Positions 2,059 to 26,766 of a DNA stretch of 51,672 bases are shown here, piece after piece. Source of the DNA: a virus; the IMG/VR virus record IMGVR_UViG_3300025127_006784, positions 1-51,672 of that record. One strand, given 5' to 3'. The translations under genes and the position numbers were made by a program. The stretch's first letter is position 1. Every line of letters begins with the position of its first letter. The notes below the pieces were generated by a model. The model made no database searches. It was given only the letters and a program-made list of their open reading frames with translations, and was not told where the DNA came from.

Positions 2059-3306
2059 TCACCGTCCCATACAAAGATCATCAAAAATAGCTCTGATCTG
2101 TAGAAACACAGTTTCTGAATTTGCTGTTGGAGTATATAATCTATCTCTCCTACCCCTAACACAATTTATAAATGTATTGTGATGTTGTTGAAGCGCAAAA
2201 ACGAATAATTCAAATCCAAAACTATCTGCGTGTTCTGCTACCTCATAACAAGTCATAGGAAGAGAGTTCATTGTTTGCGCTTCTTCGTCTGTCATTGTTA
2301 TAATAACTTTTTGTGAGTCTGGTCTCCACGAAAACGGATATGTATTCATTGACCAATACATCGTATCTATTGTGGGTTCTTGTCCAGCACTGTCAATCAT
2401 TCTGCCAGCTTCTATCACAGCAAGAAACTCATCAGCGGGTACAAAATCAGACACCATTCTTGCGAGGTGATATGCGGGTCTTAGGTCGTCACCTGCCCTA
2501 GCACCAACGACAACGAGTCCAAAGCGAAATGTGCTCGTTATCGGGTCGTCTAAGAGGGGAGTAATACCTTGTACCATTGAATCTATCTCATCCCTGAATG
2601 AACCAGAGATATCAATTACAAAAACTAAATCTACACCACGAGTATCAAATCCTTCATCAACTTCCCCATCACAATCATTATCTAAGTCATCACATCTTTC
2701 TAATGCTGGTAAAACTTGACTGTCACATGGTCCGCCGAAAGATCCATCCGTACAGTATCTAATCCCTGCTCTACATTCGCCAACACCCAGGGTTCCATCT
2801 GGTCCCTCGTAGCATACAACTGCTGTTGCATTAGCAATACCTTCGTCAATAGTTCCATTACAATTATTATCAACACCGTCACAAATCTCATCAGTGGGTC
2901 CTACATGTCCGCCACAATATAAGACGCCGTTAGAACAACTCATCACTCCTGGTTTACAGATTCCTACTCCGTAATCTACATTTTCTTCAAATCCGCAAAG
3001 TTGATGTTCTTCTGGGTATGTTTCATCAATTACCGCATCACAATCGTTATCTATTCCGTCACAGACTTCATCGGTTGGCCCTTGTGCTCCTACACATTCG
3101 GACCAGCCATTCCTTGTACAGGTTTTTATACCGTATGAGCACTGCCCTGCTCGCTGTACAATATCAACAGGATCAGCGGAAGGAAAATCTTGTCCATGTT
3201 CATCGCAAACAATTTTACTACCAGGGACACACTCTAGTTTTATGAGGCGGTCCTCCTCACAGGCAACAAACAATAGTAGTGCGGGTAGGATTTTGATTAA
3301 TCTCAT
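2059..3306 (-). CDS. Lipoprotein with MopE-type metal-binding repeats and a von Willebrand A domain
   Basis: 415 residues. The N-terminus (MRLIKILPALLLFVAC) is a short signal peptide with a lipobox-like FVAC; the Phe at -3 is not ideal. Residues ~25-215 carry Cys-rich units with three clear copies of the MopE-type putative metal-binding motif: EVCDGIDNDCDAVIDE, EICDGVDNNCNGTIDE and ERCDDLDNDCDGEVDE, separated by paired-Cys segments such as GVGICKPGVMSC. From about residue 225 a vWA domain follows, with the MIDAS motif DISGS (in VFVIDISGSF) and a later TMTDEE that could give the MIDAS Asp. Such proteins are typical of Deltaproteobacteria/Myxococcota-like surfaces and are unexpected in a phage. 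It is the last gene of a three-gene minus-strand unit and overlaps the upstream gene by 4 bases (ATGA). A secreted adhesion or receptor-masking role is inference. Confidence 0.85.
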   Translation of the reverse strand: MRLIKILPALLLFVACEEDRLIKLECVPGSKIVCDEHGQDFPSADPVDIVQRAGQCSYGIKTCTRNGWSECVGAQGPTDEVCDGIDNDCDAVIDETYPEEHQLCGFEENVDYGVGICKPGVMSCSNGVLYCGGHVGPTDEICDGVDNNCNGTIDEGIANATAVVCYEGPDGTLGVGECRAGIRYCTDGSFGGPCDSQVLPALERCDDLDNDCDGEVDEGFDTRGVDLVFVIDISGSFRDEIDSMVQGITPLLDDPITSTFRFGLVVVGARAGDDLRPAYHLARMVSDFVPADEFLAVIEAGRMIDSAGQEPTIDTMYWSMNTYPFSWRPDSQKVIITMTDEEAQTMNSLPMTCYEVAEHADSFGFELFVFALQQHHNTFINCVRGRRDRLYTPTANSETVFLQIRAIFDDLCMGR

Positions 3307-10952: not shown

Positions 10953-10983
10953 TTGACAACTTGGATTGTGTGGTTTATAAATA
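10953..10983 (+). promoter_or_regulatory. tmRNA promoter: sigma70-type and T4-late-type combined
   Basis: A perfect TTGACA (10953-10958) lies 17 bases before TATAAA (10976-10981), a near-consensus sigma70 promoter. The same -10 extends to TATAAATA (10976-10983), which is the T4 late-promoter consensus read by gp55-type sigma. Start would be near 10988-10989, a few bases before the mature tmRNA 5' end at 10992, leaving a short leader for RNase P. Confidence 0.82.
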
Positions 10984-10991
10984 ATCTATAA

Positions 10992-11316
10992 GGGGGTAAC
11001 CGGAATCGATTGATAGGAAAGTAGAGAAGGTGCAAGGGTGAGGGAAGCGTGGCTCACTAAAAACGCTTAACTTCTAATCGCAAACGACGATTTTCAACTA
11101 GCACAAGCAGCTTAATAACCTGACTTGACTTGAGGCGACGGCAGCCAAAAAACAGAAAGCCGTATCTTTTGTCCTATAAGTGCTTTTGATTATTTCAGCC
11201 ATAATAAAATGATCTAGTCAAGTGATCTGTCTGACGAAAAAAACAGTTCTAACCTTGTGAACGACCTTTCTATGGAACTAGACAAGACGGGAGTTCAATT
11301 CTCCCTACCTCCACCA
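10992..11316 (+). ncRNA. ssrA: Transfer-messenger RNA (one-piece)
   Basis: A complete 325-base tmRNA that rescues stalled ribosomes by adding a degradation tag. The acceptor stem pairs GGGGGTA (10992-10998) with TACCTCC (11306-11312, one G-U), followed by an encoded ACCA end (11313-11316). The T arm is GGGAG-TTCAATT-CTCCC (11289-11305). Pseudoknot 1 is visible: GTGAG (11038-11042) with CTCAC (11053-11057), interleaved with AAGCG (11045-11049) and CGCTT (11064-11068). The tag reading frame follows with the classic AATCGCAAACGACGA context. 5' and 3' tRNA halves are in normal order, so it is not the two-piece form of Alphaproteobacteria. No smpB gene is in the window, so host SmpB is presumably used. 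Confidence 0.97.
11080..11118 (+). other. tmRNA tag reading frame
   Basis: The resume codon is GCA at 11080, giving ANDDFQLAQAA followed by tandem TAA TAA; with the alanine carried by tmRNA itself the tag is AANDDFQLAQAA. Compared with the E. coli tag ANDENYALAA it keeps the AND start (SspB contact region) and the terminal AA (ClpX contact) but has FQLAQ inserted/changed and AQAA instead of ALAA at the end. Confidence 0.92.
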
Positions 11317-11338
11317 GCCGCCTACGGGCGGCTTTTTT
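11317..11338 (+). terminator. Rho-independent terminator of tmRNA
   Basis: GCCGCC (11317-11322) pairs with GGCGGC (11327-11332) around TACG, making a very stable C(UACG)G tetraloop of the UNCG class, followed by six T residues. It begins at the base after the ACCA end of the tmRNA. Confidence 0.95.
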
Positions 11339-11385: not shown

Positions 11386-12690
11386 ATGAAAAAAACCATT
11401 ATTTTAGATACTAACGTGTATCTTACAGAGGCAGGTTCCATACTAGCGTTTGGGAAAAACAATATTGCGATTCCGACAATTGTACTGGATGAGATAGATA
11501 AACACAAACACCGTCAAGATACTGCCGGTCTCAATGCTCGCACAATGAATAGAGTGCTGGACGCCCTTCGAAAAAAGGGAAGTTTAATGGATGGTGTCTC
11601 TCTCGGTCGTGGCAAAGGTAAAGTATTTGCTGCTCATTTTGATGAGGCTTATATGCCACCAGGCATGAACCAAGATGATTCAGATAATAAGATTATTGCC
11701 GTTGCTCTCCGCCTGAAAGATAAAGGCCATGAAATTGCTGTAGTTTCTCGTGATTTAAATATGAGAGTTAAGTGTGATGCTCATGGGATTGAATGTCATG
11801 ATTATCAACCACAAAAAGTAATCAACTCAGTGGAGAATCTTTTTACCGGAACCCAGGAGATAGAAGTAGATTTTGGTGTTATAGATAGATTTTACACTGG
11901 CGAACCATTTGAGCTTCCCGAGCAAAAGTGTAAACTTTTTCCTAATCAATTTTTACTTCTAAAAAATGAAGCCACTAATAAATCAGCCATTTGTAGATAT
12001 CCAGGAGAAGGTAACCCGCTAAGAAAAGTCAACAAATACAAGAACATATGGGGCATGTCTGCTAGAAACAAAGAACAGCAATATGCCATGGACTTGCTTT
12101 TTGATCGAGATATTCATATAATGTCCTTGACAGGACCAGCAGGAACTGGTAAAACATTATTAGCGACAGCATGTGGACTTGAACAGGTAATGAATACAAC
12201 CAGTTCTAATGGTGGGTATGATAAATTAATCATTACACGCCCTGTACAGCCAATGGGTCGTGATATAGGTTTTTTACCTGGAACACTTGAAGAGAAGATG
12301 TTGCCATGGATCGCTCCTATACGGGACAATCTTGAACATCTATTTGGAGACAGGACTGCCTTGGATATGCAGGTGGAACAAGGAACTATTGAGATTGAGG
12401 CTATGACCTATATCCGGGGTCGTTCCATCGCTAACGCATTTATGATCGTAGATGAAGCCCAAAACTTGACAGCACACGAATTAAAGACTATAATAACAAG
12501 GGTAGGACATGGAACTAAACTGGTTCTAACAGGAGATATTCAACAGATTGATAATTCCTACGTAGATTCAGTGTCCAATGGGCTAACTCACGCCGTTGAA
12601 AAGTTCAAAGAGCACGACTTAGCTGGACACGTAACATTAACTAAAGGTGAGAGATCTAAATTAGCTACACTAGCTTCGGAGATATTATGA
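11386..12690 (+). CDS. phoH: PIN-PhoH fusion ATPase
   Basis: 434 residues. The N-terminal PIN ribonuclease domain (~1-140) keeps its acidic residues: D8 in ILDTNVYL, E36 in VLDEIDKH, D97/D98/D100 in NQDDSDNK and D123 in VSRDLNMR. The C-terminal PhoH ATPase has Walker A GPAGTGKT (250-257), Walker B FMIVDEAQ (D356 E357) and TGDIQQID. PIN-PhoH proteins (PhoH2 type) couple RNA unwinding to RNA cleavage; most T4-like marine phages are reported with the PhoH domain alone. A GGGGA ribosome site lies 5 bases before the ATG. It follows the tmRNA terminator, so it has its own start; TATATAAAC near 11358 could be part of a promoter. The next gene overlaps it by ATGA. Confidence 0.93.
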   Translation: MKKTIILDTNVYLTEAGSILAFGKNNIAIPTIVLDEIDKHKHRQDTAGLNARTMNRVLDALRKKGSLMDGVSLGRGKGKVFAAHFDEAYMPPGMNQDDSDNKIIAVALRLKDKGHEIAVVSRDLNMRVKCDAHGIECHDYQPQKVINSVENLFTGTQEIEVDFGVIDRFYTGEPFELPEQKCKLFPNQFLLLKNEATNKSAICRYPGEGNPLRKVNKYKNIWGMSARNKEQQYAMDLLFDRDIHIMSLTGPAGTGKTLLATACGLEQVMNTTSSNGGYDKLIITRPVQPMGRDIGFLPGTLEEKMLPWIAPIRDNLEHLFGDRTALDMQVEQGTIEIEAMTYIRGRSIANAFMIVDEAQNLTAHELKTIITRVGHGTKLVLTGDIQQIDNSYVDSVSNGLTHAVEKFKEHDLAGHVTLTKGERSKLATLASEIL

Positions 12691-14211: not shown

Positions 14212-15471
14212 TTGACAAAGAAAATAAAAATTTTAACCATTAGCGACCATCCGCTTCTACCTTCGGGTGTGGGCACACAGACAAAGTATGTAATCGAGGC
14301 GCTATTAAACACCGGCCAGTTTGATGTCGTTTCCATGGGTGGAGCAGTAAAGCATCAGGATTATACACCTAAAAGAGTTGAAGGATTTAAAGGGGAGTGG
14401 TTAATCTTCCCTGTGGATGGGTATGGAAACCCTCAGGTTGTACAGACTTTTATTAGAGAACATCGCCCAGATATTTTGTACTTTATGACAGACCCACGTT
14501 TTTATGAATGGTTGTGGGCTATCGATGACTCAATACGTGCTAGTATTCCTATGGTTTACTATCATGTGTGGGATAATTATCCTGCTCCTAAATTTAATCA
14601 AATATACTATGAATCCACAGATGTTATTGCCACCATTTCTAAAGTAACAAGTGATATTGTACAGACGGTAGCACCCTCAGTGGATGAGCAATATATTCCC
14701 CATGCTGTAGATGGTCGGATTTTCTCAAAGAAAGATCCCGAAATTCTTAATAAAATTTACGAAGACAATCCACAACTTAAGGATCGTTTTATCTTTTTCT
14801 GGAATAACAGGAATGCCAGAAGAAAACAGACAGGAAGTCTAGTTCATTGGTTCAAAGATTTTATGGACCTAGAAAATGTAGACAGGGACAAGGTTTGTCT
14901 ATTTTTACACACTGATCCTAACGACCCTCATGGTCAGCCACTTAAATATCTGGTGGACCATCTAGGGTTTAAAGATGGAGAGGTCTTTTTGTCTACGAAC
15001 AAGCTGCCAGCAGAGCACTTAAGTTTGCTTTATAATATTGCTGATTGTACAGTTAATATTTCAGATGCCGAAGGTTTCGGCTTAGCCACTCTGGAATCCC
15101 TTTCTTGTGAAACACCTATCATTGTTAATATGACGGGCGGACTACAAGAACAGGTAACAGACGGAGAAAATTGGTTCGGTATTGGTATTGAACCATGTTC
15201 CAAAGCAATCATTGGTTCACAACAAGTTCCTTATATTTATGAAGATCGTATATCCAAGGAAGACTTTATAAATGCTCTGTTGGAAATGTATAACAAGACA
15301 CCAGAACAGTTAGAAGAATTAGGAAAGATGGGTCGCCAACATGTGGAGACAAATTATAATTTTGATAACTTTAGAAAACAATGGGTGGACTTGATGACCT
15401 CAACTCATGAGAAATACGGGTCATGGGAAAACCGGAAAAATAACAAAACCATTCGAACTGAGGTCCTATAA
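14212..15471 (+). CDS. GT-B glycosyltransferase (family 4-like)
   Basis: 419 residues; TTG start with GAGGG about 8 bases upstream. The N-terminal Rossmann lobe opens with KIKILTISDHPLLPSGVG, a donor/acceptor-binding Gly loop, and the C-terminal lobe has EGFGLATLES, the glycosyltransferase-1 motif whose Glu contacts the nucleotide sugar, followed by ETPIIVN and TGG. It transfers a sugar from an activated nucleotide in the cytoplasm; donor unknown. First gene of the island, and the next gene overlaps its stop (TAATG). Confidence 0.9.
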   Translation: MTKKIKILTISDHPLLPSGVGTQTKYVIEALLNTGQFDVVSMGGAVKHQDYTPKRVEGFKGEWLIFPVDGYGNPQVVQTFIREHRPDILYFMTDPRFYEWLWAIDDSIRASIPMVYYHVWDNYPAPKFNQIYYESTDVIATISKVTSDIVQTVAPSVDEQYIPHAVDGRIFSKKDPEILNKIYEDNPQLKDRFIFFWNNRNARRKQTGSLVHWFKDFMDLENVDRDKVCLFLHTDPNDPHGQPLKYLVDHLGFKDGEVFLSTNKLPAEHLSLLYNIADCTVNISDAEGFGLATLESLSCETPIIVNMTGGLQEQVTDGENWFGIGIEPCSKAIIGSQQVPYIYEDRISKEDFINALLEMYNKTPEQLEELGKMGRQHVETNYNFDNFRKQWVDLMTSTHEKYGSWENRKNNKTIRTEVL

Positions 15472-16742
15472 TGAATAAACCCAAAGTACTAGTAATAGGT
15501 CCTGTATGTAATATATCAGGATACAGTGAACATGCTCGAACACTCTTAGACGCCCTTATCAAGATAGAAGATAAGATTGATTTATACATTCAGAATACAC
15601 AATGGGCAGCAGCAAGTACGGACATGAAGTACGTTGAAAAGTATTCTAATCTTCTACAGAAAACTCATACAGTTCTATCTCAGCGAGCAGATAAAGATGG
15701 GAACGTTAATTTGTATGGCATCTTTGATATGTCGTTTCAAGTTCGCCCACCTAATGAATTCCAAAAGGTTACGCCTATGGATGTTGGTGTCACCGCTGCC
15801 TTGGAGACAACTTTTGCCCCGGCTAGTTGGATACCAAACTGTAATCAAATGAGTCATATTTTAGTCGTCTCTCAGCACGCCAAGAAGAGTTTAACAAATG
15901 CCAAAGGTGATGATGGTTCTAGAATTGCCACGCCAATTAGCATTATTCCTTTTGGGCATGATAGTAGTGTAAAAACCACTGATATTTATCAGGAAATGGG
16001 AATTACAACTAAGTTTAATTTTCTAACAGTGGCTCAGAGGGCTCCCAGAAAAAATCTTGAAAAGATGCTACTTTGGTTCTTACGGGAGTTTGGCGATAAC
16101 GAAGAAGTGGGTCTTGTCATCAAGAGTCACACTCAAAACTCTAGCACTGGTGACTTTTATAATACCAGAGCATTTTTACGGACTTATCTAGATCACCTTA
16201 ACTCAAATAGAAAGTGTAAATTCTATCTCACTCATGGTAAATTCTCTGAAGAGAGAATGTTATCTCTCTATAATCCAGAATATATCAACTGTTACATTAC
16301 TGCTACTCATGGCGAAGGGTTTGGTATTCCTGTTTTTAACGCAGCTTGCGCTGGTATTCCAATTGTTGCTACTAACTGGTCTGGTCACCTAGACTACCTG
16401 CGGATGCCTGTGGAGAACAAGAGTGGGAAAAAGCAAATAAAAAGCCAGTTTGTAAAAGTTAACTACGATATTAAAAAGGTTGAACAGAAACATTTGATGC
16501 CTGGGTTGATTACAGAAGATTGTGAGTGGGCCTATCCTAAAGAGCAGTCCTTTAGGCAGGGTTTGCGACAAGTTTATTCTCAAAGTGATCAATTCGTTGA
16601 GAGTTCTAAACAACTATCAGAATTCTTAAAGAATAAATATGACATTTCTGAGATTCATAACATGTATATTGATTTTGTTAACACTCATCTTGACACAGTT
16701 ACATCGGATACTAATAATGACCAATCCACTTTTTACCTGTAG
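15471..16742 (+). CDS. GT-B glycosyltransferase (family 4-like)
   Basis: 423 residues. The start VLVIGPVCNISGYSEHART has the Gly-rich acceptor loop, and GEGFGIPVFNAACAGIP is the family-4 donor-binding motif, followed by ATNWSGHLDYL. A middle FLTVAQRAPRKNLEKML is typical of the inter-lobe strand of this family. It is related in layout to the preceding gene but not a recent duplicate. The ATG overlaps the previous stop codon. Sugar specificity cannot be read from sequence. Confidence 0.9.
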   Translation: MNKPKVLVIGPVCNISGYSEHARTLLDALIKIEDKIDLYIQNTQWAAASTDMKYVEKYSNLLQKTHTVLSQRADKDGNVNLYGIFDMSFQVRPPNEFQKVTPMDVGVTAALETTFAPASWIPNCNQMSHILVVSQHAKKSLTNAKGDDGSRIATPISIIPFGHDSSVKTTDIYQEMGITTKFNFLTVAQRAPRKNLEKMLLWFLREFGDNEEVGLVIKSHTQNSSTGDFYNTRAFLRTYLDHLNSNRKCKFYLTHGKFSEERMLSLYNPEYINCYITATHGEGFGIPVFNAACAGIPIVATNWSGHLDYLRMPVENKSGKKQIKSQFVKVNYDIKKVEQKHLMPGLITEDCEWAYPKEQSFRQGLRQVYSQSDQFVESSKQLSEFLKNKYDISEIHNMYIDFVNTHLDTVTSDTNNDQSTFYL

Positions 16743-17895
16743 TTTTTTAAAACACTTTGAAAACCTAGATAAGAAAATTATAGAAGAAGATTATGAAATA
16801 TCTTTAGAACAGACAGAGCTTCGCCTGAGGGATAATAATCCTCACACAATTGTGGAGGCATTTCAACAATTTGATTCTCGACCTGAGATAGCTTATAATA
16901 AAAAGGTCGTTAACTATACGGCTAAATATAGCAACATCAAAGACTTGGACCTAAACAAGACTCCGGCATTGATACCTGCGAAAGATAGTTTGGAATTATT
17001 GAGGTTTACGTTTTCTAACCTTAAGGGTCATGGTGTTTTTGAACATATAGTTCCTGTGCTGATTGATGATCGATCTACTCGACAGAAGGAGATGAGAGAA
17101 TTAGCAGACGAATATAACGCAATATATATCAGGATGGATTACAATAGTCCCACCTTCAATTTCTCAGTGATCAACAACGCTGCGGCTGCTTTTTTAAAGA
17201 CTGTTGGTTACAGTGACGTAATTCTCTGGAATTCAGATTTGTGGGTTGATAACGATAAGGTTATCCCTTACATTCTCAATAAGCATAAAAATGGAAAAGA
17301 AGAAGATTTCTACGCTACAGGGGTTAAACTTTTATACCCTACTAGAGGTTTCTGTGATTTAATGGACGACGAGAAATTTATTACCTCTCTGGCTAGCGAC
17401 TTTAACCTACCGCCCGCACAGATTGAAAGTTATAATCCTTTTGGGTCTATACAGTTTGGTGGCAGTTCTTTTGTTATTACTCCCTTTTTAAAACGAGTAA
17501 CACCAATTGTTGCCTCGCCTATTCATTTTGGACGCTTCACCAGTAGGAACGCAAAGGGTATGAATATAGATAAGCAAGTTCATTTTATGACTGGTGCTTT
17601 TATTTTATGTGACCTAGAAAAGTTTGAACAAGTAGGTGGCTTAAATCCAAGCATGAATTCACAATTTCAGGACGTAGACTTATGTCTTAAGTTGAACGCA
17701 GCCGGGTCAAAGATTATGTTTTACGGTAAAGATGTACACCTTCTCCACGCAGAGTCAATGTCACTTTCCTCCAAGGCAGAAGAATCATCTGGAATAAAAA
17801 CAACACCCGCTTTTAGAGACGATATGATCACTAACCAGGCATTGTATGCTACTGTTTGGAACCCTGTTTACTTATATGGAACTTTAGGAATATAA
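16717..17895 (+). CDS. GT-A glycosyltransferase (family 2-like)
   Basis: I place the start at ATG 16717 (MTNPLFTCSFLKHF), giving 392 residues; an upstream in-frame ATG at 16639 would add a hydrophobic stretch encoded over the previous gene and is not supported. The fold is GT-A: LIPAKDSLELLRFTF, VPVLIDDRST (nucleotide-binding Asp), then VILWNSDLWVDNDK as the DxD-like site. MTGAFILCDLEKFEQVGG and SQFQDVDLCLKL match the acceptor-side motif of rhamnosyltransferase-type family-2 enzymes (ED-like). This fits the following rml genes, but the acceptor is unknown. Confidence 0.85.
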   Translation: MTNPLFTCSFLKHFENLDKKIIEEDYEISLEQTELRLRDNNPHTIVEAFQQFDSRPEIAYNKKVVNYTAKYSNIKDLDLNKTPALIPAKDSLELLRFTFSNLKGHGVFEHIVPVLIDDRSTRQKEMRELADEYNAIYIRMDYNSPTFNFSVINNAAAAFLKTVGYSDVILWNSDLWVDNDKVIPYILNKHKNGKEEDFYATGVKLLYPTRGFCDLMDDEKFITSLASDFNLPPAQIESYNPFGSIQFGGSSFVITPFLKRVTPIVASPIHFGRFTSRNAKGMNIDKQVHFMTGAFILCDLEKFEQVGGLNPSMNSQFQDVDLCLKLNAAGSKIMFYGKDVHLLHAESMSLSSKAEESSGIKTTPAFRDDMITNQALYATVWNPVYLYGTLGI

Positions 17896-18414
17896 ATGAG
17901 CTTTGAAGGTATAAATTATTTAAACCTAACAACATTTCAAGACCACAGAGGTGAGTTTTGTGAAATGTACAATCATGGTATAATGGAACACTTTGAAGAA
18001 AGGTTCGTACAGACCAATATCTCAAAGTCTCGTCAAGGAGTCTTTAGAGGTTTACATTACCAGTGGGACGATCCTATGGGTAAACTTATTACCGTTCTTC
18101 ATGGAGAGATAGTAGATTTTTGGATGGATATACGTCAAGACTCCCCAACATATGGCGAGACAGGGAAAATGAACCTTAGGGACTCAAACCCCACTTTATT
18201 ATATCTTCCTCCAGGTTTTGCCCATGGATTCTATTCTGTTACAGATTCTATAGTTAAATATGAGTGTACTTCTTACTATAATAAGCACGGGGAAGGTGCG
18301 ATATCTTATAAGGAAATACCTAATCTAGACAAAGAGGGGTTGATAATTTCTGAAAAAGATAAAAGCGCCCCCCGTTTCTCTGAGTACAAAGAAAATGCCA
18401 AATTCTTCTACTAA
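17896..18414 (+). CDS. rmlC: dTDP-4-dehydrorhamnose 3,5-epimerase
   Basis: 172 residues, close to the usual ~180. The cupin core carries DHRGEFCEMY, NISKSRQGVFRGLHYQ (RGLHYQ is the family signature), GEIVDFWMDIRQDSPTYG and YLPPGFAHGFYS (catalytic/metal-side His). It epimerises C3 and C5 of the 4-keto-6-deoxy sugar from RmlB, making the precursor of dTDP-L-rhamnose. The ATG follows the previous stop directly; the next gene overlaps its end by 20 bases. Confidence 0.93.
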   Translation: MSFEGINYLNLTTFQDHRGEFCEMYNHGIMEHFEERFVQTNISKSRQGVFRGLHYQWDDPMGKLITVLHGEIVDFWMDIRQDSPTYGETGKMNLRDSNPTLLYLPPGFAHGFYSVTDSIVKYECTSYYNKHGEGAISYKEIPNLDKEGLIISEKDKSAPRFSEYKENAKFFY

Positions 18415-19108
18415 GGCAATGATCCTGACTGGTGGCAGTGGAACGCTGGGCACAGAATTACGTCACATAGGAAAAGATAACGATTGTATGTTTATATCTC
18501 CCACGTCTAGCGAGTGTAACATATTGGTGTATCGTGATGTCTTGAGAACGCTGAGTAAATATAAGTGTGACACCGTAGTTCATGCTGCGGCAGCTACAGA
18601 TGTTTCTGGTCTTGAGGATAATCCTATAAAAGCATTTGAGGTTAATGTGATAGGGACTTTTAATATTCTTAAGGCTTGTATAGAATTAGATAAGAATTTA
18701 GTTTATATTTCAACAGATTATGTTTTCGACGGATCTTCAGGACCATACAATACATCAGACGCTATAAACCCTTTATCTGTTTATGCTAAATCTAAAGCAT
18801 CTGCTGAATTGATGGTCCGAGCCTATGATAAGTCTACGATTATTCGTACTAGTTTCTTTGGTCGTGAGTTCCCCCACAAGGCAGCTTTTACAGATCAGTG
18901 GAGTTCAAAGGATTATGTAGATGAAATAGCGCCAAAAATAATAAAATGCTTAAAGAGTGGGCAAAGGGGTGTATTTCATATAGGCTCACCCCGCCGCACC
19001 ATTTATGAAATAGCTAAAACAAGATCACCAGACGTTGATAAAATTTCAAGAACAATTATCAACCACCAGGTCCCAGAGGACACATCTCTGGTGTTGTCAG
19101 ATTTTTAA
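18395..19108 (+). CDS. rmlD: dTDP-4-dehydrorhamnose reductase-like (short)
   Basis: 237 residues versus ~290 in typical RmlD. Short-chain dehydrogenase features: GGSGTLG nucleotide loop, VVHAAAATDVSGLEDNP, LVYISTDYVFDG with the catalytic Ser/Thr, YAKSKASAE (YxxxK), and VFHIGS in the C-terminal lobe. The shortened C-terminal region may alter the sugar site. It would reduce the product of RmlC to dTDP-rhamnose with NADPH. The start is uncertain: a Met at 18419 gives the usual MILTGG start but lacks a correctly spaced ribosome site, so I kept 18395. Confidence 0.85.
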   Translation: MPNSSTKAMILTGGSGTLGTELRHIGKDNDCMFISPTSSECNILVYRDVLRTLSKYKCDTVVHAAAATDVSGLEDNPIKAFEVNVIGTFNILKACIELDKNLVYISTDYVFDGSSGPYNTSDAINPLSVYAKSKASAELMVRAYDKSTIIRTSFFGREFPHKAAFTDQWSSKDYVDEIAPKIIKCLKSGQRGVFHIGSPRRTIYEIAKTRSPDVDKISRTIINHQVPEDTSLVLSDF

Positions 19109-19117
19109 GGAGATGTA

Positions 19118-20005
19118 ATGAAAATTGTAGTAACAGGCGGCCGAGGCTTTATTGGTAGTCATTTTGTCGAAGAAGCTCTTAAAAGAGGTTGGAAAATAAC
19201 TGATATTGATTGTATGACATATGCTGCTCATGAGGAACTTCCATGGGATGAACATAAAAATTATAAGCTTATAAAGGAAGATATAGCCACCCTAAAAAGT
19301 TTACCAAAGTGCGACTACGTAATTAATTTTGCGGCTGAAAGTCACGTAGACAATTCCATCAGAGATACAGAGCCATTTATTCACAGTAATATAATAGGGG
19401 TTCATAACCTTCTTCAGCTTGTTAGAGGTAAGGAAAAATACGATAGACCTGTGTTTTTTCAAATTAGCACTGATGAGGTCTACGGAGATATAGAGCAAGG
19501 CTCATTTGTTGAGACAGATACTTTGAAACCATCTAATCCTTATTCAGCCACAAAAGCATCGGCTGAGATGCTTGTGCTTTCGTATGCTCGCACTTATGGG
19601 TTGGAATACATTATAACTCGGAGCGGTAATAATTATGGATCTCGTCAATATGAGGAGAAACTGATCCCTAAGTGTATAGAGTCCATTACAAATAATAAGA
19701 AGATACCAATTCATGGCGACGGTAGTTATGTAAGGGACTGGACCCATGTTAAGGATAATGTTTCTGCCCTAATTCACCTCATAGAAGGTGGCTATAAAAA
19801 TCAGGTTTTCAATATCGCTGCCCAGAATCACTTAACTAATCTGGAAGTAGTTGATATTATACTTGGGTGGTATGGTAAAGATAGAGAAATGATTGAGTTT
19901 GTTCCAAACCGTTGGGGACAAGATACCCGATACTCTATTAATACTGATAAAATTTTAGAAACAGGGTGGAAACCAATCCGCCTTGGTGGTATTCACAGGG
20001 ATTAG
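19118..20005 (+). CDS. rmlB: dTDP-glucose 4,6-dehydratase
   Basis: 295 residues, somewhat short for RmlB (~340-360). It has TGGRGFIGSHF (NAD loop), INFAAESHVDNSI, FQISTDEVYGDI with the active-site Thr-Asp-Glu, NPYSATKASAEM (YxxxK), SGNNYGSRQYEEKLIP and RWGQDTRYSI near the end. AAGGAG precedes the ATG by about 5 bases. It makes dTDP-4-keto-6-deoxyglucose, the shared precursor of rhamnose and other 6-deoxy sugars. No RmlA thymidylyltransferase is in the window. Confidence 0.93.
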   Translation: MKIVVTGGRGFIGSHFVEEALKRGWKITDIDCMTYAAHEELPWDEHKNYKLIKEDIATLKSLPKCDYVINFAAESHVDNSIRDTEPFIHSNIIGVHNLLQLVRGKEKYDRPVFFQISTDEVYGDIEQGSFVETDTLKPSNPYSATKASAEMLVLSYARTYGLEYIITRSGNNYGSRQYEEKLIPKCIESITNNKKIPIHGDGSYVRDWTHVKDNVSALIHLIEGGYKNQVFNIAAQNHLTNLEVVDIILGWYGKDREMIEFVPNRWGQDTRYSINTDKILETGWKPIRLGGIHRD

Positions 20006-20006
20006 A

Positions 20007-21326
20007 ATGAAACTAGCTGCGGTATATAGCGTCTTTGACTCGGAGGAGTTGTTACCTTACAGCATATCTTCTATTAGAGACTTGGTAGATGAAATTATCA
20101 TTGTCTATCAGACTGTAAGTAACTGCGGCAATACTCACCCTAACGAGTCATTTGTTAGCTTTATAAGTGAACTAGGGGTAGATAACCTTGTGTTGTATCA
20201 GCCTAGTATTACTAATCACCCTCACAATGCTGAATTGAATGAAAGAAACAAGAGAGGCATTGGGTGTAAACATGCCATGAATCTCGGCTGTACTCACTTT
20301 GTTTTTGTTGATTGTGATGAGTTCTATGACAGGGAACAATTTATTCAAGCAAAGAAGCAGATTGTTGATAATGATTACGACTCAAGCGCATGTCAGATGG
20401 CAACTTATTACAAATCCCCCACTTATCGGTTAACTCCAAACGAAGAATATTACGTCCCTTTCATAACAAAGCTTCAACCTGGCGTAACGCAACTAGCAAA
20501 TTTCCCAGACTATCCAGTATTGGCAGACCCTTCTAGGAAGAGTTTTCCGTGGAACAACTTTAAAAAGTTTGAAAGATCCGAATTGGAAATGCATCACTTT
20601 ACGATGGTCCGCAAGGATATCGAGCTAAAGTTTAAGAATCATTCTACCTTAAGTACACGTAGTTATTCTTTTGAGCAGTTGGTTAGTGACTTTAACAATT
20701 TTAAACCTGGAAACAAACTAGTCCCTCCGTTTGAAAAATATAATGTTACAATAGTAGATAACAAGTTCAATATCCCTGAAGAAATACCAGACTACGTGGA
20801 TAAATCATTTTCTGTACTAACTGAAATTTGTAATGCTTTAGGAGATTCTAATATTGATTACTGGCTATCTTCTGGCACTTATCTTTCTCTGTATAGAGAA
20901 AACAGATTTTTCCCCTGGGATCTAGATTTAGATATTGATATAGATGGAACAAAAACCGACCTGAACAAACTGAAGAATATTATGAATTCTTTAGGCTATG
21001 AAATGATCAAAGAGTGTAATCTTGGCGGCAAGACAAATCAAATAATGTACAGATCAAATAAAATCGAAAGGATTATAGATTTCTATATCTGGTACAAAGA
21101 GGAAGATCAATACGTAACTCATTGTGATGTTGGGTATTTGTTTTACCCAGTCGAGATAGTGGAGAATGTTCACCCTCAATCTATTAGAGATCAGATTTTT
21201 AACTGCCCTCCGCCTCATGAGTATTTTACATTACGTTATGGAGAAGATTGGATGACTCCCAAGAGGGTCAGCGGTCTACCTGGCGGGGGATGGGATATTA
21301 CTAAGAATTTAGTAAGGAGAAGATAA
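20007..21326 (+). CDS. Glycosyltransferase-LicD-like phospho(no)transferase fusion
   Basis: Start placed at ATG 20007, right after the rmlB stop, giving 439 residues. Residues ~1-215 are a GT-A-like domain: KLAAVYSVFDSEELLPYSI, CTHFVFVDCDEFYD with the DxD at 102-104. Residues ~265-425 are LicD-like: YWLSSGTYLSLYRENRFFPW (286-305) followed by DLDLDID, and LRYGEDWMTP at 409-418, the family's usual C-terminal signature. LicD proteins attach phosphocholine or similar groups from a CDP/CMP-activated donor to glycans. The next gene (overlap TAATG) makes exactly such a CMP-activated donor, so I infer transfer of hydroxyethylphosphonate to the sugar added by, or recognised by, the N-terminal domain. 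Confidence 0.8.
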   Translation: MKLAAVYSVFDSEELLPYSISSIRDLVDEIIIVYQTVSNCGNTHPNESFVSFISELGVDNLVLYQPSITNHPHNAELNERNKRGIGCKHAMNLGCTHFVFVDCDEFYDREQFIQAKKQIVDNDYDSSACQMATYYKSPTYRLTPNEEYYVPFITKLQPGVTQLANFPDYPVLADPSRKSFPWNNFKKFERSELEMHHFTMVRKDIELKFKNHSTLSTRSYSFEQLVSDFNNFKPGNKLVPPFEKYNVTIVDNKFNIPEEIPDYVDKSFSVLTEICNALGDSNIDYWLSSGTYLSLYRENRFFPWDLDLDIDIDGTKTDLNKLKNIMNSLGYEMIKECNLGGKTNQIMYRSNKIERIIDFYIWYKEEDQYVTHCDVGYLFYPVEIVENVHPQSIRDQIFNCPPPHEYFTLRYGEDWMTPKRVSGLPGGGWDITKNLVRRR

Positions 21327-22636
21327 TGAGTAATGATAAAATAGCCTATGTGGCAATGTGTGCTGATTTTATTCACCATGGTCATCTCAATATTATCAAC
21401 GAAGCAGCCAAATATGGAACTGTTGTTGTTGGTGTCCTTACCGATGATGCCATCGCAAGTTATAAGAGAATACCAGCACTTACCTATGAACAGAGGAAAG
21501 TGATTGTTGAGAATATCAAAAACGTTTCCCGAGTCATACCTCAAAATACTCTTGATTATGTCCCAAACTTAGAACTTCTCAAGCCGGACTTTGTTGTCCA
21601 TGGAGATGACTGGGTTAAGGGACAACAAGAAAACGTAAGAAAGTCTGTTGTTGATAAAGTCCAAGAGTGGGGTGGAAAGGTCATAGATGTTCCCTACACT
21701 AAGGGTATTTCCTCGACCAAACTTCATGAGCACCTAAAGGAGATTGGCACAACTCCTGATGTAAGAAGAAAAATGCTGCGTAGAATTTTAAACTCTAAAG
21801 GTTTTGCTAGGATTGTAGAAACCCATAACGGATTGACAGGTTTAATTGCTGAAAAAATCTCTGTAAATGTCAATGAGCAAAAGAGAGAGTTCGACGGAAT
21901 GTGGCTGTCCAGCCTGACACATTCAGCGTCTAAAGGTAAGCCTGATATTCAATATGTGGATATCACTTCTATGTCTTCTACTATTAGTGAGATTTTTGAG
22001 GCTACCACAAAGCCAATGATTGTTGATGCTGATAGCGGTGGTCTTACAGAGCATTTCCGTTTCATGGTTCGCACCCTGGAGAGACTTGGGGTTTCGGCTG
22101 TTATTATTGAGGATAAAATAGGAGCAAAAAGAAATTCACTTTTCGGAAATGAGCGTGGTCAGAAGCAAGATACTATTGATAATTTTTGCTTTAAGATTTC
22201 TGAAGGAAAGAAAGCACAAATAACTAAAGACTTCATGATAATTGCTCGCATTGAGAGCTTGATTCTAAAACAAGGCTTAGAAGATGCTCTTAGGCGTGCT
22301 CATGCCTATGTCGCTTCGGGGTCAGATGCCATAATGATTCATAGCAAAGAGAATGAACCAGATGAGATTATTGCCTTCTGTAAAAAGTTTAGAGAAGATG
22401 ATCCATCTACACCGCTGGTTGTTGTCCCTTCTACATATAACTCTATAACAGAGACGGAACTAAAAAACCTAGGTGTTAATGTTGTGATATACGCAAATCA
22501 CTTGCTTAGAAGCGCCTATCCAGCGATGGTTAATGTGTGCGAAAAGATATTAGTACATGAGCGGTCACTAGAGGTTGATGATCAGTGTTTACCAATCAAA
22601 GAAATTATTACACTTATCCCAGGTACTGACAAATGA
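21326..22636 (+). CDS. pepM: Cytidylyltransferase-phosphoenolpyruvate mutase fusion
   Basis: 436 residues. Residues 1-140 are a cytidylyltransferase domain: FIHHGH (HxGH at 17-20) and ISSTK (128-132). Residues ~150-436 are PEP mutase: IVDADSGG (234-239 holds the metal-binding DxD) and EDKIGAKRNS (262-271), the EDKxxxxxNS signature that separates mutases from isocitrate lyase relatives. PEP mutase makes phosphonopyruvate, forming the C-P bond; the fused domain should activate a phosphonate with CTP. The equilibrium favours PEP, so the decarboxylase genes directly downstream are the usual driver. The start overlaps the previous stop, and the end overlaps the next ATG. Confidence 0.95.
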   Translation: MSNDKIAYVAMCADFIHHGHLNIINEAAKYGTVVVGVLTDDAIASYKRIPALTYEQRKVIVENIKNVSRVIPQNTLDYVPNLELLKPDFVVHGDDWVKGQQENVRKSVVDKVQEWGGKVIDVPYTKGISSTKLHEHLKEIGTTPDVRRKMLRRILNSKGFARIVETHNGLTGLIAEKISVNVNEQKREFDGMWLSSLTHSASKGKPDIQYVDITSMSSTISEIFEATTKPMIVDADSGGLTEHFRFMVRTLERLGVSAVIIEDKIGAKRNSLFGNERGQKQDTIDNFCFKISEGKKAQITKDFMIIARIESLILKQGLEDALRRAHAYVASGSDAIMIHSKENEPDEIIAFCKKFREDDPSTPLVVVPSTYNSITETELKNLGVNVVIYANHLLRSAYPAMVNVCEKILVHERSLEVDDQCLPIKEIITLIPGTDK

Positions 22637-23037
22637 GAACTGAAGAAAACAAAGGTCTTTTCGACAAATTGAAAGACGAGGTTGACATTTTCATTGGAGT
22701 CCCTGATAGTCTCCTCAAAGAATTTATTAAGGACATAGAGAATTCTAATATGCGCCACATTGTAGCAACCAATGAGGCACACGCTGTTGCTATTGCTTTT
22801 GGTGCGATATTGTCTGGAGCTAATCCTTGTGTATATCTTCAAAACTCTGGGCTCGGAAATATTATCAACCCTCTTACCAGCCTTTGTATTCCGGCTGATA
22901 TTACGCCCCTTTTAGTAATCGGTCATCGCCACACACTCCCTCAGCATAAAATAATGGGAGAAGTCGATGATCAAATGCTTAAACTAATTGGGTATGACAA
23001 TTATATTCTTGTCACAGGGGATAATAATGCTAAGTAG
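22633..23037 (+). CDS. Phosphonopyruvate decarboxylase, alpha (PYR-domain) subunit
   Basis: 134 residues. The pyrimidine-binding half of a thiamine-diphosphate decarboxylase: DIFIGVPDSLLKEF, IVATNEAHAVAIAFGAIL (E48 is the cofactor-activating Glu), PCVYLQNSGLGN and DITPLLVIGHR. Phosphonopyruvate decarboxylase is usually a single ~370-residue chain; here it is split as in sulfopyruvate decarboxylase (ComD/ComE). Removal of CO2 gives phosphonoacetaldehyde and makes the PEP mutase step irreversible. It overlaps pepM by 4 bases and the beta subunit by 11. Confidence 0.9.
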   Translation: MRTEENKGLFDKLKDEVDIFIGVPDSLLKEFIKDIENSNMRHIVATNEAHAVAIAFGAILSGANPCVYLQNSGLGNIINPLTSLCIPADITPLLVIGHRHTLPQHKIMGEVDDQMLKLIGYDNYILVTGDNNAK

Positions 23038-23497
23038 AAAAGCAGCACTACAAGAAATATTTAACAAGCATGGTCAAGAAGCAGTCTACATAGCCCCTAC
23101 TGGCTTTTTGTCTAGGGCTGTGTATCAATTATATCCTACTTGGGGAAACATATTTTATATGCAAGGGTCTATGGGATTATCGCCAGGCATTGGAATTGGT
23201 ATAGCCCTCAACACGGATAAAGAGGTTGTGGTCCTAAACGGTGACGGAGGTCACCTTATGCATCTAGGTCTTACGCATACTGTTCGAGATTTAAAACTTG
23301 ATAATTTGTTTGTTTATATTTTAGATAACGGGGTACATGAATCTGTGGGGTCTCAAGAATGTTCTGTTCTAGAAAAAGAATATCCTGGCGTGAATAAGAT
23401 ATATAAAATCTCGTGTGATGGAAAATGCCCACGAGTAGCAATTGGTTTCGAGGACAACGCAAATACGATTGCCAATTTTGTAAGAGATTTAGAATGA
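23027..23497 (+). CDS. Phosphonopyruvate decarboxylase, beta (TPP-binding) subunit
   Basis: 156 residues from ATG 23027, which has AGGGG 7 bases upstream; an earlier in-frame Met at 22988 lies deep in the alpha gene and is not supported. VVVLNGDGGHLMHLG (GDG 72-74) and YILDNGVHESVG (DN 100-101) form the GDG-N thiamine-diphosphate motif. The sequence MQGSMGLSPGIGIGIAL matches the partner-domain contact region of this decarboxylase family. Good spacing of a ribosome site and an intact start argue that the split is real, not a frameshift. Confidence 0.9.
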   Translation: MLSRKAALQEIFNKHGQEAVYIAPTGFLSRAVYQLYPTWGNIFYMQGSMGLSPGIGIGIALNTDKEVVVLNGDGGHLMHLGLTHTVRDLKLDNLFVYILDNGVHESVGSQECSVLEKEYPGVNKIYKISCDGKCPRVAIGFEDNANTIANFVRDLE

Positions 23498-24294
23498 AAA
23501 AAACTCTGCTAGTTTGCTCAAGGTCTACCCGTAAGTATTTTCCGGACATCGACAAAACTAGAGTCATAACAGGACCTCTAAGTGCGACAGAAGCTAAAAA
23601 ATTACACAACTCCGAGGATGATGTGATAGCGGTTGGTGGAGGTGCTGTCATAGATGCTGCGAAGATCATCTGTAAGAACCCAATTGTTTGTTATCCCACA
23701 ACAGCAGCCGGCACTGTACATACAAAGCACTCGGTGGTTTGGGATGGTCATAATAAAATATCTATTTCTGTTCCTGTTCCTGATCAAGTTATAGTGAAAG
23801 AGGAGTTTTTAACATCTCTACCATTTTCGGTGACACTAAAAACTACCTATGATGCGGTAAGTCATTGCCTTGATAGTTTATGGTCTACTAAGAGAAACGA
23901 TCTTAGCACAGAATTTGCTGAAAGAGCTTTAAGTATTTTACTCAAGTGCGACAATAATTTAGATTTGGTGAACGCTGGTAACTTAGCCGGTCGAGCTATA
24001 GCTATAACACCAACAACAATTCTACACTCTCTATCATATCCTTTAACAGGAATCTATGGTATAGATCATGGACTTGCTTTAGGGTTTCTTCTTGAATCAG
24101 TGTGTGATAGAATGGGTTCAGATGTTGCCAGCCGCCTAGCTATACCAAAATTGAATGTTGAAGATTTTGATGTCGAGGAAACTTCGACGGAAGCATTAAA
24201 ATATAGTAAATTACAAGATACAAACAAAGTGTTTAAGATCGAAGATGTAAAGAGTATATACAGAGAATCTATCACTAGGAATAACGAGAAATAA
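23494..24294 (+). CDS. Phosphonoacetaldehyde reductase-like iron alcohol dehydrogenase (compact)
   Basis: Start placed at ATG 23494 (ATGA overlap with the beta subunit), 266 residues; the family usually has ~380. It keeps the nucleotide site GGGAVIDAAK (48-57), PTTAAGTVHTKHSV and all four iron ligands: D120 and H124 in DAVSHCLDSLW, H178 in HSLSYP and H192 in GIDHG (H-x13-H). N-terminal strands and the C-terminal helical domain are trimmed. Iron dehydrogenases next to pepM-ppd reduce phosphonoacetaldehyde to 2-hydroxyethylphosphonate. No aminotransferase (aminoethylphosphonate route) or methyltransferase is in the cassette, so hydroxyethylphosphonate is the most likely product. Confidence 0.85.
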   Translation: MKKTLLVCSRSTRKYFPDIDKTRVITGPLSATEAKKLHNSEDDVIAVGGGAVIDAAKIICKNPIVCYPTTAAGTVHTKHSVVWDGHNKISISVPVPDQVIVKEEFLTSLPFSVTLKTTYDAVSHCLDSLWSTKRNDLSTEFAERALSILLKCDNNLDLVNAGNLAGRAIAITPTTILHSLSYPLTGIYGIDHGLALGFLLESVCDRMGSDVASRLAIPKLNVEDFDVEETSTEALKYSKLQDTNKVFKIEDVKSIYRESITRNNEK

Positions 24295-24298
24295 TCTG

Positions 24299-24979
24299 AT
24301 GAACTATACTTCCAGGCACAATCAAGCTCTTAAAAAATTTGAAGGAGTACACGAGGGTAAGGACGCTATAATTTTTGCCACTGGTCCCAGTGTGAGTAAA
24401 TTTCACTGGACTCCTGATTTTACTAACTGTATCAAGCTTGGATTGAATGGCATTTATCAGTATGATAATATTGCTCAATCTTTAGACTATTACATGTTTG
24501 GAAGTGGGTACCATACAGATACAGCGCACTACAATCAGATAAACCAACTTCGAGAAGAAAACTCTGATGCTGTTTTTTTATCATCTACTTTTACCGCAAA
24601 ACATGGAGATGGTCGGGAAACAGGACTTGGAAACATCACTGAGAAAGCTGCCATAGAACTCGGAGCGATACCGTTTGAAGTCGGATATCCTGGATATGGA
24701 CCAGGTATTGAGTGGCAGAAAGATATTAGCAATAAGCCTTTTTACGGAGCTACGATAGCCCAACCAGCAACACAATTTCTGTTATACACTGGTGTTAAAA
24801 AAGTCTACCTAGTTGGATGTGATCTTGGCAATTCCTACAACGACCAATACGCAGTGCGTGTCTGGACTGATGCCTGGAAAAAATTACCTCCCTTCCTCCA
24901 AGAGAACTACCCAGGGGTTGAGATTATATCTGTTAATCCAGAAGGTCTTACAGGGGTCTTTAGTGACATCTATACCTGA
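24299..24979 (+). CDS. DUF115 / GT42-like putative glycosyltransferase
   Basis: 226 residues. The start AIIFATGPSVSKFHW resembles the GxGPS nucleotide loop of the Campylobacter-type sialyltransferases (GT42) and of DUF115 (flagellar glycosylation) proteins; then IKLGLNGIYQY, LDYYMFGSG and the late VKKVYLVGCDLGNSY match the same Rossmann layout. Its neighbourhood with NeuA/NeuB-type genes suggests transfer of a nonulosonic acid, but I cannot identify the His/Arg pair of GT42 with certainty. The following gene starts inside its last codons. Confidence 0.65.
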   Translation: MNYTSRHNQALKKFEGVHEGKDAIIFATGPSVSKFHWTPDFTNCIKLGLNGIYQYDNIAQSLDYYMFGSGYHTDTAHYNQINQLREENSDAVFLSSTFTAKHGDGRETGLGNITEKAAIELGAIPFEVGYPGYGPGIEWQKDISNKPFYGATIAQPATQFLLYTGVKKVYLVGCDLGNSYNDQYAVRVWTDAWKKLPPFLQENYPGVEIISVNPEGLTGVFSDIYT

Positions 24980-26222
24980 ACTAATACTGAACAATGTGTG
25001 CCCCTTACGACGCAGTTTATTGGGAACTGAAAACGATAAAGCTTTGTCGATTATTGAAGAATATTACCCTTTAATAACTCATAGTTTTAAATCGGGTGAC
25101 GGTGTTCTTGACTGGACAGTTCCTAAAGAATGGAAACTCAGCAGAGCAACTTTAACTTCAGAGCGTGGAGAGTTAATTTGTGATTCTGATAGGAGTATTC
25201 TAGAAGTTGTTAATTATAGTGAACCATATGTTGGAACTTTATCATTTGATGATTTAAAGGAGCATTTACACTTTTCAACCACTCTTCCCTTCTCTATCCC
25301 TTATCGAACATCCTATTATAACAGAAGTTGGGGATTCTGCCTCTCTAAAAGTTCTTATGACAATTTAGACACATCCTCTCTTTACAGGGTGAACATAGAT
25401 GCCGAGTTTGTTGATGGGTCCATGAATATTGGAGAACTCTGTATCGAAGGAAAGTCAAAGAAAGAAATAATTCTTACCTCATATTTGTGCCACCCGGAAC
25501 AGGCCCATGATGGATTGTCTGGAGTCATTTGTCTTCTAGATTTGTATGACAAACTCAAGGACCTAGACAACTTTTACACATACCGTTTCTTTTTTATACC
25601 AGAAACTATTGGATCTATTTGTCTTTTAGGTCGGGGAATAATAAAACCTTCCAAGGTTGAATTTGCGATTGTATCTACTTGTGTGGGTTATGGTGAAGAA
25701 CTTACTTACAAGGAGACATTTATTGGGAATCATCCTATAGATAACATCGTAAAAAATAGAAACAAAACTATAAATCAAAAGTTTACCCCAACTGGTAGTG
25801 ATGAGAGACAATTGTCGAGTCCAAAGGTTCGGATCCCAACTGCTTCCCTGATGACAAATCCTCACTCGGAATTTCCAGAGTATCATACTTCTAGTGACAA
25901 TCTAAATCTTGTCAATATAGAAACCATTAAACAAGTTTCTTCGTTTTACTTTGAAATATTACAAGAATATGAAAATAGAAAGTGCTACACCATATGTCAT
26001 GACGGCGGCGAGCCTTTTCTGGCACACAAAAATATTTATCGTCAAACTGGAGGAACTTCAAACACAACTTGGGATACGGTAAGAAACTGGGTTATATTTC
26101 TTTCAGACACCAACAATTCGATGTTAGACATGTCAGTTAAAACTGACATACCGATTAAAGAAATAGAAAAATGTGTTAAGGTATTGGTGGATAAAGAAAT
26201 AATTAAGCTTGAGGATCAATGA
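24963..26222 (+). CDS. DUF4910-type aminopeptidase-like polysaccharide-locus protein
   Basis: I choose GTG 24963 (with CAGGGG ~7 bases upstream) giving 419 residues; the frame runs open further back over the previous gene. SYYNRSWGFCLSKSSYDNL, EIILTSYLCHPEQAHDGLSG (metal-binding His/Asp of M28-like peptidases) and RFFFIPETIGSICLLG are hallmarks of DUF4910/DUF2172 proteins in polysaccharide loci; HSEFPEYHTSSDNL supplies later metal-side residues. The C-terminal ~80 residues resemble a winged helix (IKEIEKCVKVLVDKEIIKL), as in relatives. It may deacylate or hydrolyse a sugar amide; the reaction is not established for the family. Confidence 0.82.
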   Translation: MTSIPELILNNVCPLRRSLLGTENDKALSIIEEYYPLITHSFKSGDGVLDWTVPKEWKLSRATLTSERGELICDSDRSILEVVNYSEPYVGTLSFDDLKEHLHFSTTLPFSIPYRTSYYNRSWGFCLSKSSYDNLDTSSLYRVNIDAEFVDGSMNIGELCIEGKSKKEIILTSYLCHPEQAHDGLSGVICLLDLYDKLKDLDNFYTYRFFFIPETIGSICLLGRGIIKPSKVEFAIVSTCVGYGEELTYKETFIGNHPIDNIVKNRNKTINQKFTPTGSDERQLSSPKVRIPTASLMTNPHSEFPEYHTSSDNLNLVNIETIKQVSSFYFEILQEYENRKCYTICHDGGEPFLAHKNIYRQTGGTSNTTWDTVRNWVIFLSDTNNSMLDMSVKTDIPIKEIEKCVKVLVDKEIIKLEDQ

Positions 26223-26223
26223 C

Positions 26224-26766
26224 ATGTTTGTCGGTTTAGTCGCAGCTAAGGGAGAGTCTAAAAGGTTTAAGAATAAAAACATTCACCGGGTTGAAGGCTA
26301 TCCAATGTTTTGGCATAGTGTAAAACCATTACTTGACAGCGACCTTGTGGATGATGTATATGTCTTAACAGACTCCGACTTTGTAAAGGATTACTGTAGA
26401 GAAAACGGAGTGAAGACAATTCATCGTGCCCGGAACGCCTCCAGGTCCGAAGATAAACTGATCAGTGTTCTTAGATACGGCTATTATAATTTGGACCAAG
26501 AATATGATGGGGTTATTACTATAATGGCAAACTGCCCTGGACACACCACCGAACAAGTTGATTCATGTATTTCTATGATGAAAGATAAAAATCTTTTTGA
26601 GGTAAGGTCTTTCAATACTTCGGGGGAAGAGAGCGGTCTTATCGTCTTCTCGAAAAAGATCATGGAATCTAATCAAGATGTGTCATATTATGTCGGGTGT
26701 AGTGTAGATGAGGTAATCGAAATCCACTACGAAGAAGACCTAGAAAAGGTAAAAAAAGTATGGTAA
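26224..26766 (+). CDS. CMP-sugar synthetase-like nucleotidyltransferase (NeuA-like, short)
   Basis: Start at ATG 26224, one base after the previous stop, giving 180 residues versus ~220-230 in CMP-sialate synthetases. VGLVAAKGESKRFKNKNI is the CTP-binding loop (usual form ARGGSKR..KNI), VYVLTDSDFVKDYC the following strand, and ITIMANCPGHTTEQVDSC matches the QPTSPLRT segment in a degenerate form. It would activate the product of the NeuB-type enzyme with CTP. The shortening removes part of the dimerisation region, so activity needs testing. Confidence 0.75.
   Translation: MFVGLVAAKGESKRFKNKNIHRVEGYPMFWHSVKPLLDSDLVDDVYVLTDSDFVKDYCRENGVKTIHRARNASRSEDKLISVLRYGYYNLDQEYDGVITIMANCPGHTTEQVDSCISMMKDKNLFEVRSFNTSGEESGLIVFSKKIMESNQDVSYYVGCSVDEVIEIHYEEDLEKVKKVW

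Follow-up and report, generated by a model that had tools for sequence, protein, structure and literature searches.

The window analysed here, a 51,672-base contig of an uncultured virus (IMG/VR class; labelled G000 among its relatives), carries one complete one-piece tmRNA gene at 10992-11316 (+), and among related phages the inner C-terminal part of the encoded tag, which reads ANDDFQLAQAA in the window, is exchanged within a strongly conserved RNA. Alanyl-tmRNA enters stalled ribosomes together with SmpB, and the tag that it adds is a proteolysis signal. In our reading the gene probably specifies a functional phage tmRNA that would rescue ribosomes with host factors and still send the tagged proteins to degradation, with a tag whose inner C-terminus can be exchanged.

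The tmRNA gene, its structure and its surroundings

ARAGORN and the Rfam tmRNA model agree on a single complete tmRNA, and the RF00023 match covers the full length (1-374) and scores 86.9 bits, above the gathering score of 47 (E = 2e-32). The order of the elements in this match, acceptor 5' strand, tag and acceptor 3' strand, rules out a two-piece (permuted) tmRNA. The 5' strand of the acceptor stem (10992-10998) forms seven pairs with 11306-11312, including G3-U70, the T arm of the tRNA-like domain lies at 11289-11305, and the discriminator A and the CCA end are both encoded at 11313-11316. The pseudoknot PK1 (GUGAG/CUCAC and AAGCG/CGCUU; 11038-11068) lies 5' of the resume codon GCA at 11080, which sits in the context UAAUCGCA. 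From there the tag frame runs to 11118, with a hydrophobic Ala-Ala terminus followed by the two stops TAATAA, and the last tag codons pair with the sequence after the stops in helix H5 (11104-11127), which contains the CAA codon of the -3 residue (11104-11106); all of these elements are on the plus strand. The first-pass annotation, made from the letters alone, had read a virus-encoded, complete one-piece tmRNA with acceptor stem, encoded ACCA, T arm, PK1 and a tag that keeps the AND start and the AA end and has AQAA where many bacteria have ALAA, and every one of these elements was recovered. Its span of 10992 to 11338 is correct at the start and too long at the end, where it includes the terminator: the RNA gene stops with ACCA at 11316.

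Conservation of the structure was analyzed in 34 aligned relatives. The named helices are paired in 97.5% of the cells, compared to about 40-54% when the partners are slid. Pair 3 of the acceptor stem is G-U in 34/34, the discriminator A and the encoded CCA end are likewise present in all 34, and PK1 is nearly invariant, with 98.8% and 100% of the cells paired in its two helices. Compensatory pairs occur in the acceptor stem, where pair 7 changes from A-U to G-C in 4 of the 34, in the T arm (100% paired, with compensatory change in two pairs), and in H5, where they affect the pairs 114-137, 115-136 and 116-135 of alignment A1, the last of which shows up to three forms (A-U, G-C and C-G). This conservation speaks against the idea that the phage tmRNA chiefly ties up host SmpB, or competes with the tmRNA of the host, and does not serve rescue. 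The tmRNA of mycobacteriophage DS6A, which consists of the tRNA-like domain only, is thought to act in this way (PMC4131195), and the two-alanine allele of one relative (G028, see below) would fit. However, the whole mRNA-like domain, PK1, the resume context and the tag frame are kept by selection, and we consider an inhibitory role very improbable.

A sigma70-type promoter (TTGACA, 17-nt spacer, TATAAA) is predicted at 10953-10981 (+), 10 nt 5' of the tmRNA, and 29 of the 42 clade loci have a strict version of the pattern (TTGACA-N16-19-TANA) in the corresponding position, as opposed to 0.3% of shuffled upstream sequences. An intrinsic terminator, GCCGCC-TACG-GGCGGC-U6, follows directly after the CCA at 11316-11338 (+; stem 11316-11333 plus U tract), and a GC-rich hairpin of the same type lies directly 3' of the tmRNA in 41/42 clade loci. 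Judged from the predicted promoter and terminator, the tmRNA is its own transcription unit. It had been suggested that the gene might support fast late translation, but late expression found no support, as the promoter is of the sigma70 type. The T4-type late promoter TATAAATA was rejected as a candidate: it occurs 5 times in the window against 5.2 expected, and it is present at the promoter spot in just 2/42 loci, overlapping the -10 box of the sigma70-type promoter. Since TATAAATA is neither enriched nor conserved, transcription of the tmRNA by the host RNA polymerase from its own sigma70-type promoter is the better guess.

Relatives were gathered by a scan with the neighbouring PhoH protein, which gave 75 loci, and the tmRNA was counted over 46 records comprising the near clade and tag-pattern hits. 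A tmRNA above the Rfam cut-off is present in 41 of the 46, and the remaining five records break off at the PhoH gene or within it; every record that covers the site thus has a tmRNA (41/41). In all 41 it lies just upstream of a PIN-PhoH (PhoH2-like) gene. In the window this gene occupies 11386-12690 (+), and its product scores above cut-off for the PIN domain (PF13638) and the PhoH ATPase (PF02562), while PhoH2, its best NCBIfam model, reaches 300.8 bits, below the equivalog cut-off of 680. From this synteny one may speculate that the PIN domain marks an RNase that possibly creates broken messages.

The window holds further cargo. Between the PhoH/exonuclease and the baseplate genes there is a surface-glycan-type cluster (14212-29380) with two glycosyltransferases, an RmlC-like isomerase, sugar epimerases, LicD, NeuB and a cytidylyltransferase. 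An apparently complete phosphonate pathway is found at 21326-24294. Its PEP mutase carries a fused cytidylyltransferase (TIGR02320, 398 bits, exceeding the cut-off of 319.55), its phosphonopyruvate decarboxylase is split (22633-23037 and 22988-23497), and its iron-dependent alcohol dehydrogenase, at 23425-24294, resembles PsrA most; among 36 relatives searched the PEP mutase was found only in the window. A putative lipoprotein at 2059-3306 (-), with Cu-binding MopE motifs and a VWA domain, is also unusual cargo for a phage.

Tag alleles and their exchange among relatives

The tags of tmRNAs are usually regarded as fixed for a bacterial lineage. Over 42 sequences including the window we found 19 tags ending in AQAA, 4 reading ANDDFQLALAA, 6 reading ANNNAELALAA, 12 ending in [M/L]EMAA, and one, in G028, with Ala-Ala only. 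The tag frame is open and ends with AA-stop in 41/42 (window included), and the 42nd, G028, reads AA-stop at once, so terminal Ala-Ala is kept in every readable clade tag. Only Q, L and M occur at -3. In the LAA alleles three different codons (CTA, CTC and TTA) encode the Leu, which suggests that selection acts at the peptide level. The kept Ala-Ala is not pure evidence of such selection, since pairing in H5 partly dictates the final codons, GC(A/G)GCT. The N-terminal and middle residues of the tag vary too (ANNNAEL, ANNDL, ANNDS).

In the G028 record (IMGVR_UViG_3300009129_001478; tmRNA at L186 266-592), GCT TAA comes after the resume codon and leaves a tag of two alanines. The sequence GCAGCTTAAAAAC occurs twice in it, as a possible duplication or assembly error, and a search for a second contig with this type of tag found none. 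Going by this single contig, a tag of the usual kind might be dispensable.

The AQAA ending is really uncommon, as the first-pass annotation had proposed. In an IMG/VR survey of loci collected via a generic tmRNA 3' end, a rough yardstick that contains bacterial prophage flanks, the 76 ARAGORN tags among the matches listed included 49 LAA, 7 MAA, 4 VAA and 3 IAA endings, and QAA was found in 0/76. The tag was also looked for in a scan of 84,980 prokaryote species, each represented by a single genome, in which no AQAA-ending tag of the form AND[DN]Fx[LIMVF][AED]xAA was found; this pattern leaves out the ANNNAELALAA and ANNDLNMEMAA alleles, and MAGs can lack the tmRNA gene. The only readable matches were the ANDNFELALAA tags of Acidobacteriota-type MAGs. 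It follows that the AQAA tmRNA was not simply copied in recent times from any host gene sampled, and recent capture from a host was rejected for the ANDDF-type pattern searched.

The three ending classes (QAA, LAA and MAA) require at least 12 changes on the PhoH DNA tree, a parsimony minimum on one tree with many weak branches, while shuffled labels give a mean of 18 and a minimum of 14, indicating some inheritance and much switching. Class switches separate well-supported sisters in G033/G036-G037, G025/G027, G032/G034-G035, G005/G006 and G013/G007-G009. A tree of the tmRNA without its tag region gives 13 class changes, which means that the tag is also mobile with respect to the remainder of the RNA. 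The tag cassettes (alignment columns 78-145) of G033 and G025 are identical to that of G016 (0/67 differences). Compared with its sister G036, G033 has 11/67 differences in the cassette and 1/77 and 9/180 outside it, and G025 has 10/68 differences to its sister G027 in the cassette and 4/77 and 11/179 outside. The exchanged segment includes the H5 partner strand with which the -3 codon pairs. At least two of the switches thus look like cassette exchanges inside the tmRNA. More distant phages (50-57% PhoH identity) often carry tmRNAs whose tags are of an ordinary type, for example ANDNVEFDYALAA and ANTDTYSEYALAA, and tags of the type [..]NMEMAA are found directly 5' of PhoH at 46-51% PhoH identity (L335 1282-1600, L342 6518-6836 and L329 2808-3150), suggesting that the MEMAA ending may be old in the group.

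Two accounts of what drives the switching can be set side by side. One is neutral drift combined with recombination, where the inner residues hardly matter as long as AND...AA and H5 are kept. The constraint is indeed strongest on the RNA structure, the N-terminal and middle residues vary as listed above, and recombination is common in phages; on the other hand, the restriction of -3 to Q, L and M is not random, its Leu is kept with three synonymous codons, and MEMAA persists even where PhoH identity falls to 46-51%. We give this account real weight, if somewhat short of an even chance. In the other, the cassettes would be selected to suit each host's ClpX or adaptor, with swaps following changes of host. 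It appears as if the at least 12 class changes and the clear cassette exchanges in otherwise conserved tmRNAs suit such host matching, and natural tags do differ between bacterial groups, with 710-734 unique tags known (PMC4131195, PMC4383926), but no sampled species has an AQAA or MEMAA tag of the ANDDF type, and hence no host match was found. We give host matching slightly less weight than drift.

Candidate partner proteins and the proposed fate of the tagged proteins

A search of 16 records, possibly incomplete ones, for SmpB, SspB or an AAA_2 (ClpX/ClpA-type) unfoldase found none, and host SmpB and a host unfoldase are therefore presumably used. A ClpP-family protein is present in 10 clade records, including all seven of at least 97 kb; the window is without it. 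The protein matches PF00574 with E about 1e-31, and its Ser-His-Asp triad (S in GKAMSCG, H in MIHD, D in ADWFMDA) aligns with that of the solved ClpP 6w9t. With 94.5 bits it stays below the NCBIfam ClpP equivalog cut-off of 249, but ClpP models still outscore the head-maturation model (62.8 bits). We therefore assign it from its sequence to the ClpP-family peptidases without equating it with ClpP proper, and since the equivalog cut-offs are missed it may conceivably serve in head maturation. The gene, with an intact triad at L315 4225-4827 (G020) and L317 4254-4856 (G045), adjoins glutaredoxin (L315 3958-4215) and transglycosylase-like genes and is near a phage GroEL gene (L315 1-843), and it is not near capsid genes in the stretches read.

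These findings bear on a further suggestion of the first-pass annotation, namely that the altered ending spares tagged proteins from host ClpXP. In this scenario Q or M at -3 would weaken ClpX recognition, so that tagged or truncated phage proteins escape while the ribosomes are still freed. The Leu at -3 does contact ClpX, and its mutation raises KM (PMC7652416); the rarity of QAA (0/76 among the matches listed) also speaks for this scenario. However, terminal Ala-Ala is the most important element for ClpX recognition and the effect of Leu at -3 on KM is only modest (PMC7652416), as far as can be judged from a literature on tag-directed degradation that concerns E. coli tags (PMC7652416, PMC8512704). 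Ala-Ala is kept in 41/42 tags, the same phages switch freely among QAA, LAA and MAA, with LAA and QAA alleles interchanging between sisters, and the ten records with a ClpP-family peptidase represent a gain rather than a loss of proteolysis. Q at -3 may thus weaken ClpX recognition but should not abolish it, and we regard a protective tag as unlikely.

Returning to rescue with continued degradation, we propose that host AlaRS charges the tmRNA and host SmpB loads it, and that the phage tmRNA would then free ribosomes stalled on broken messages during infection, with (A)ANDDFQLAQAA added to each unfinished protein. Since these proteins retain the terminal Ala-Ala, ClpX-type unfoldases would still take them up for degradation, possibly together with a ClpP-family peptidase of the phage where one is encoded. 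The tag's inner C-terminal portion (Q at -3 in the window) would be a module swapped by recombination among relatives, and the swaps may plausibly tune the uptake of the tag by the unfoldase or adaptor of a given host.

Relation to known tmRNAs and significance

With bacterial one-piece tmRNA (ssrA, RF00023) the window gene shares the G3-U70 acceptor stem, T arm, PK1, resume codon, Ala-Ala and encoded CCA; it differs in being virus-encoded, in the many AQAA or [M/L]EMAA alleles of its clade, and in a cassette exchanged between relatives. The closest bacterial tag pattern in the species scan, ANDNFELALAA of Holophagaceae and other Acidobacteriota, also has 11 residues and the form AND-x-F-x-L-A-x-A-A but ends in ALAA and not AQAA, a likeness of tag pattern that implies no host link. 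A tmRNA has been reported in 402 of 18,146 phage genomes (2.3%), with proposed roles in rescue and protein recycling (PMC9004378), and ten named examples of tmRNAs in cultured phages include mycobacteriophages Bxz1, Catera and Wildcat and Bacillus phage G (PMC4131195). As in these, a complete gene lies in a phage genome, and here no phage SmpB was found; the present clade differs from them in being the only tmRNA clade of this analysis in which tag endings were followed across relatives, and the window has no DNA match in 50,697 phage records, its nearest cultured relatives showing about 30-39% identity by protein. The methylophage Melnitz and the pelagimyophages are likewise marine myoviruses with the tmRNA in a small transcription unit and a proposed rescue or recycling role, but their tmRNA is two-piece, permuted and joined to a glutamine riboswitch (PMC9004378), whereas that of the window is one-piece with a sigma70-type promoter, and an Rfam search found no riboswitch.

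Phage tmRNAs were already known, and the swapping of tags is the new part; the open-licence literature yielded no report of tag endings being exchanged among members of one phage clade. As a tentative and, on balance, improbable extension, the tag end with its H5 partner strand might form an exchangeable module that re-addresses rescued proteins to different unfoldases or adaptors, and that together with the phages' own ClpP-family peptidase and GroEL would make up a phage-run protein-quality system. The clade raises the question why a lytic phage would retain an RNA for rescue together with a chaperonin and a ClpP-family peptidase, and yet encode neither SmpB nor an unfoldase. It also provides natural QAA, LAA, MAA and perhaps bare Ala-Ala alleles in nearly the same RNA body, and such naturally matched pairs could be used for testing how the -3 residue and the inner tag affect degradation, adaptor use and phage fitness.
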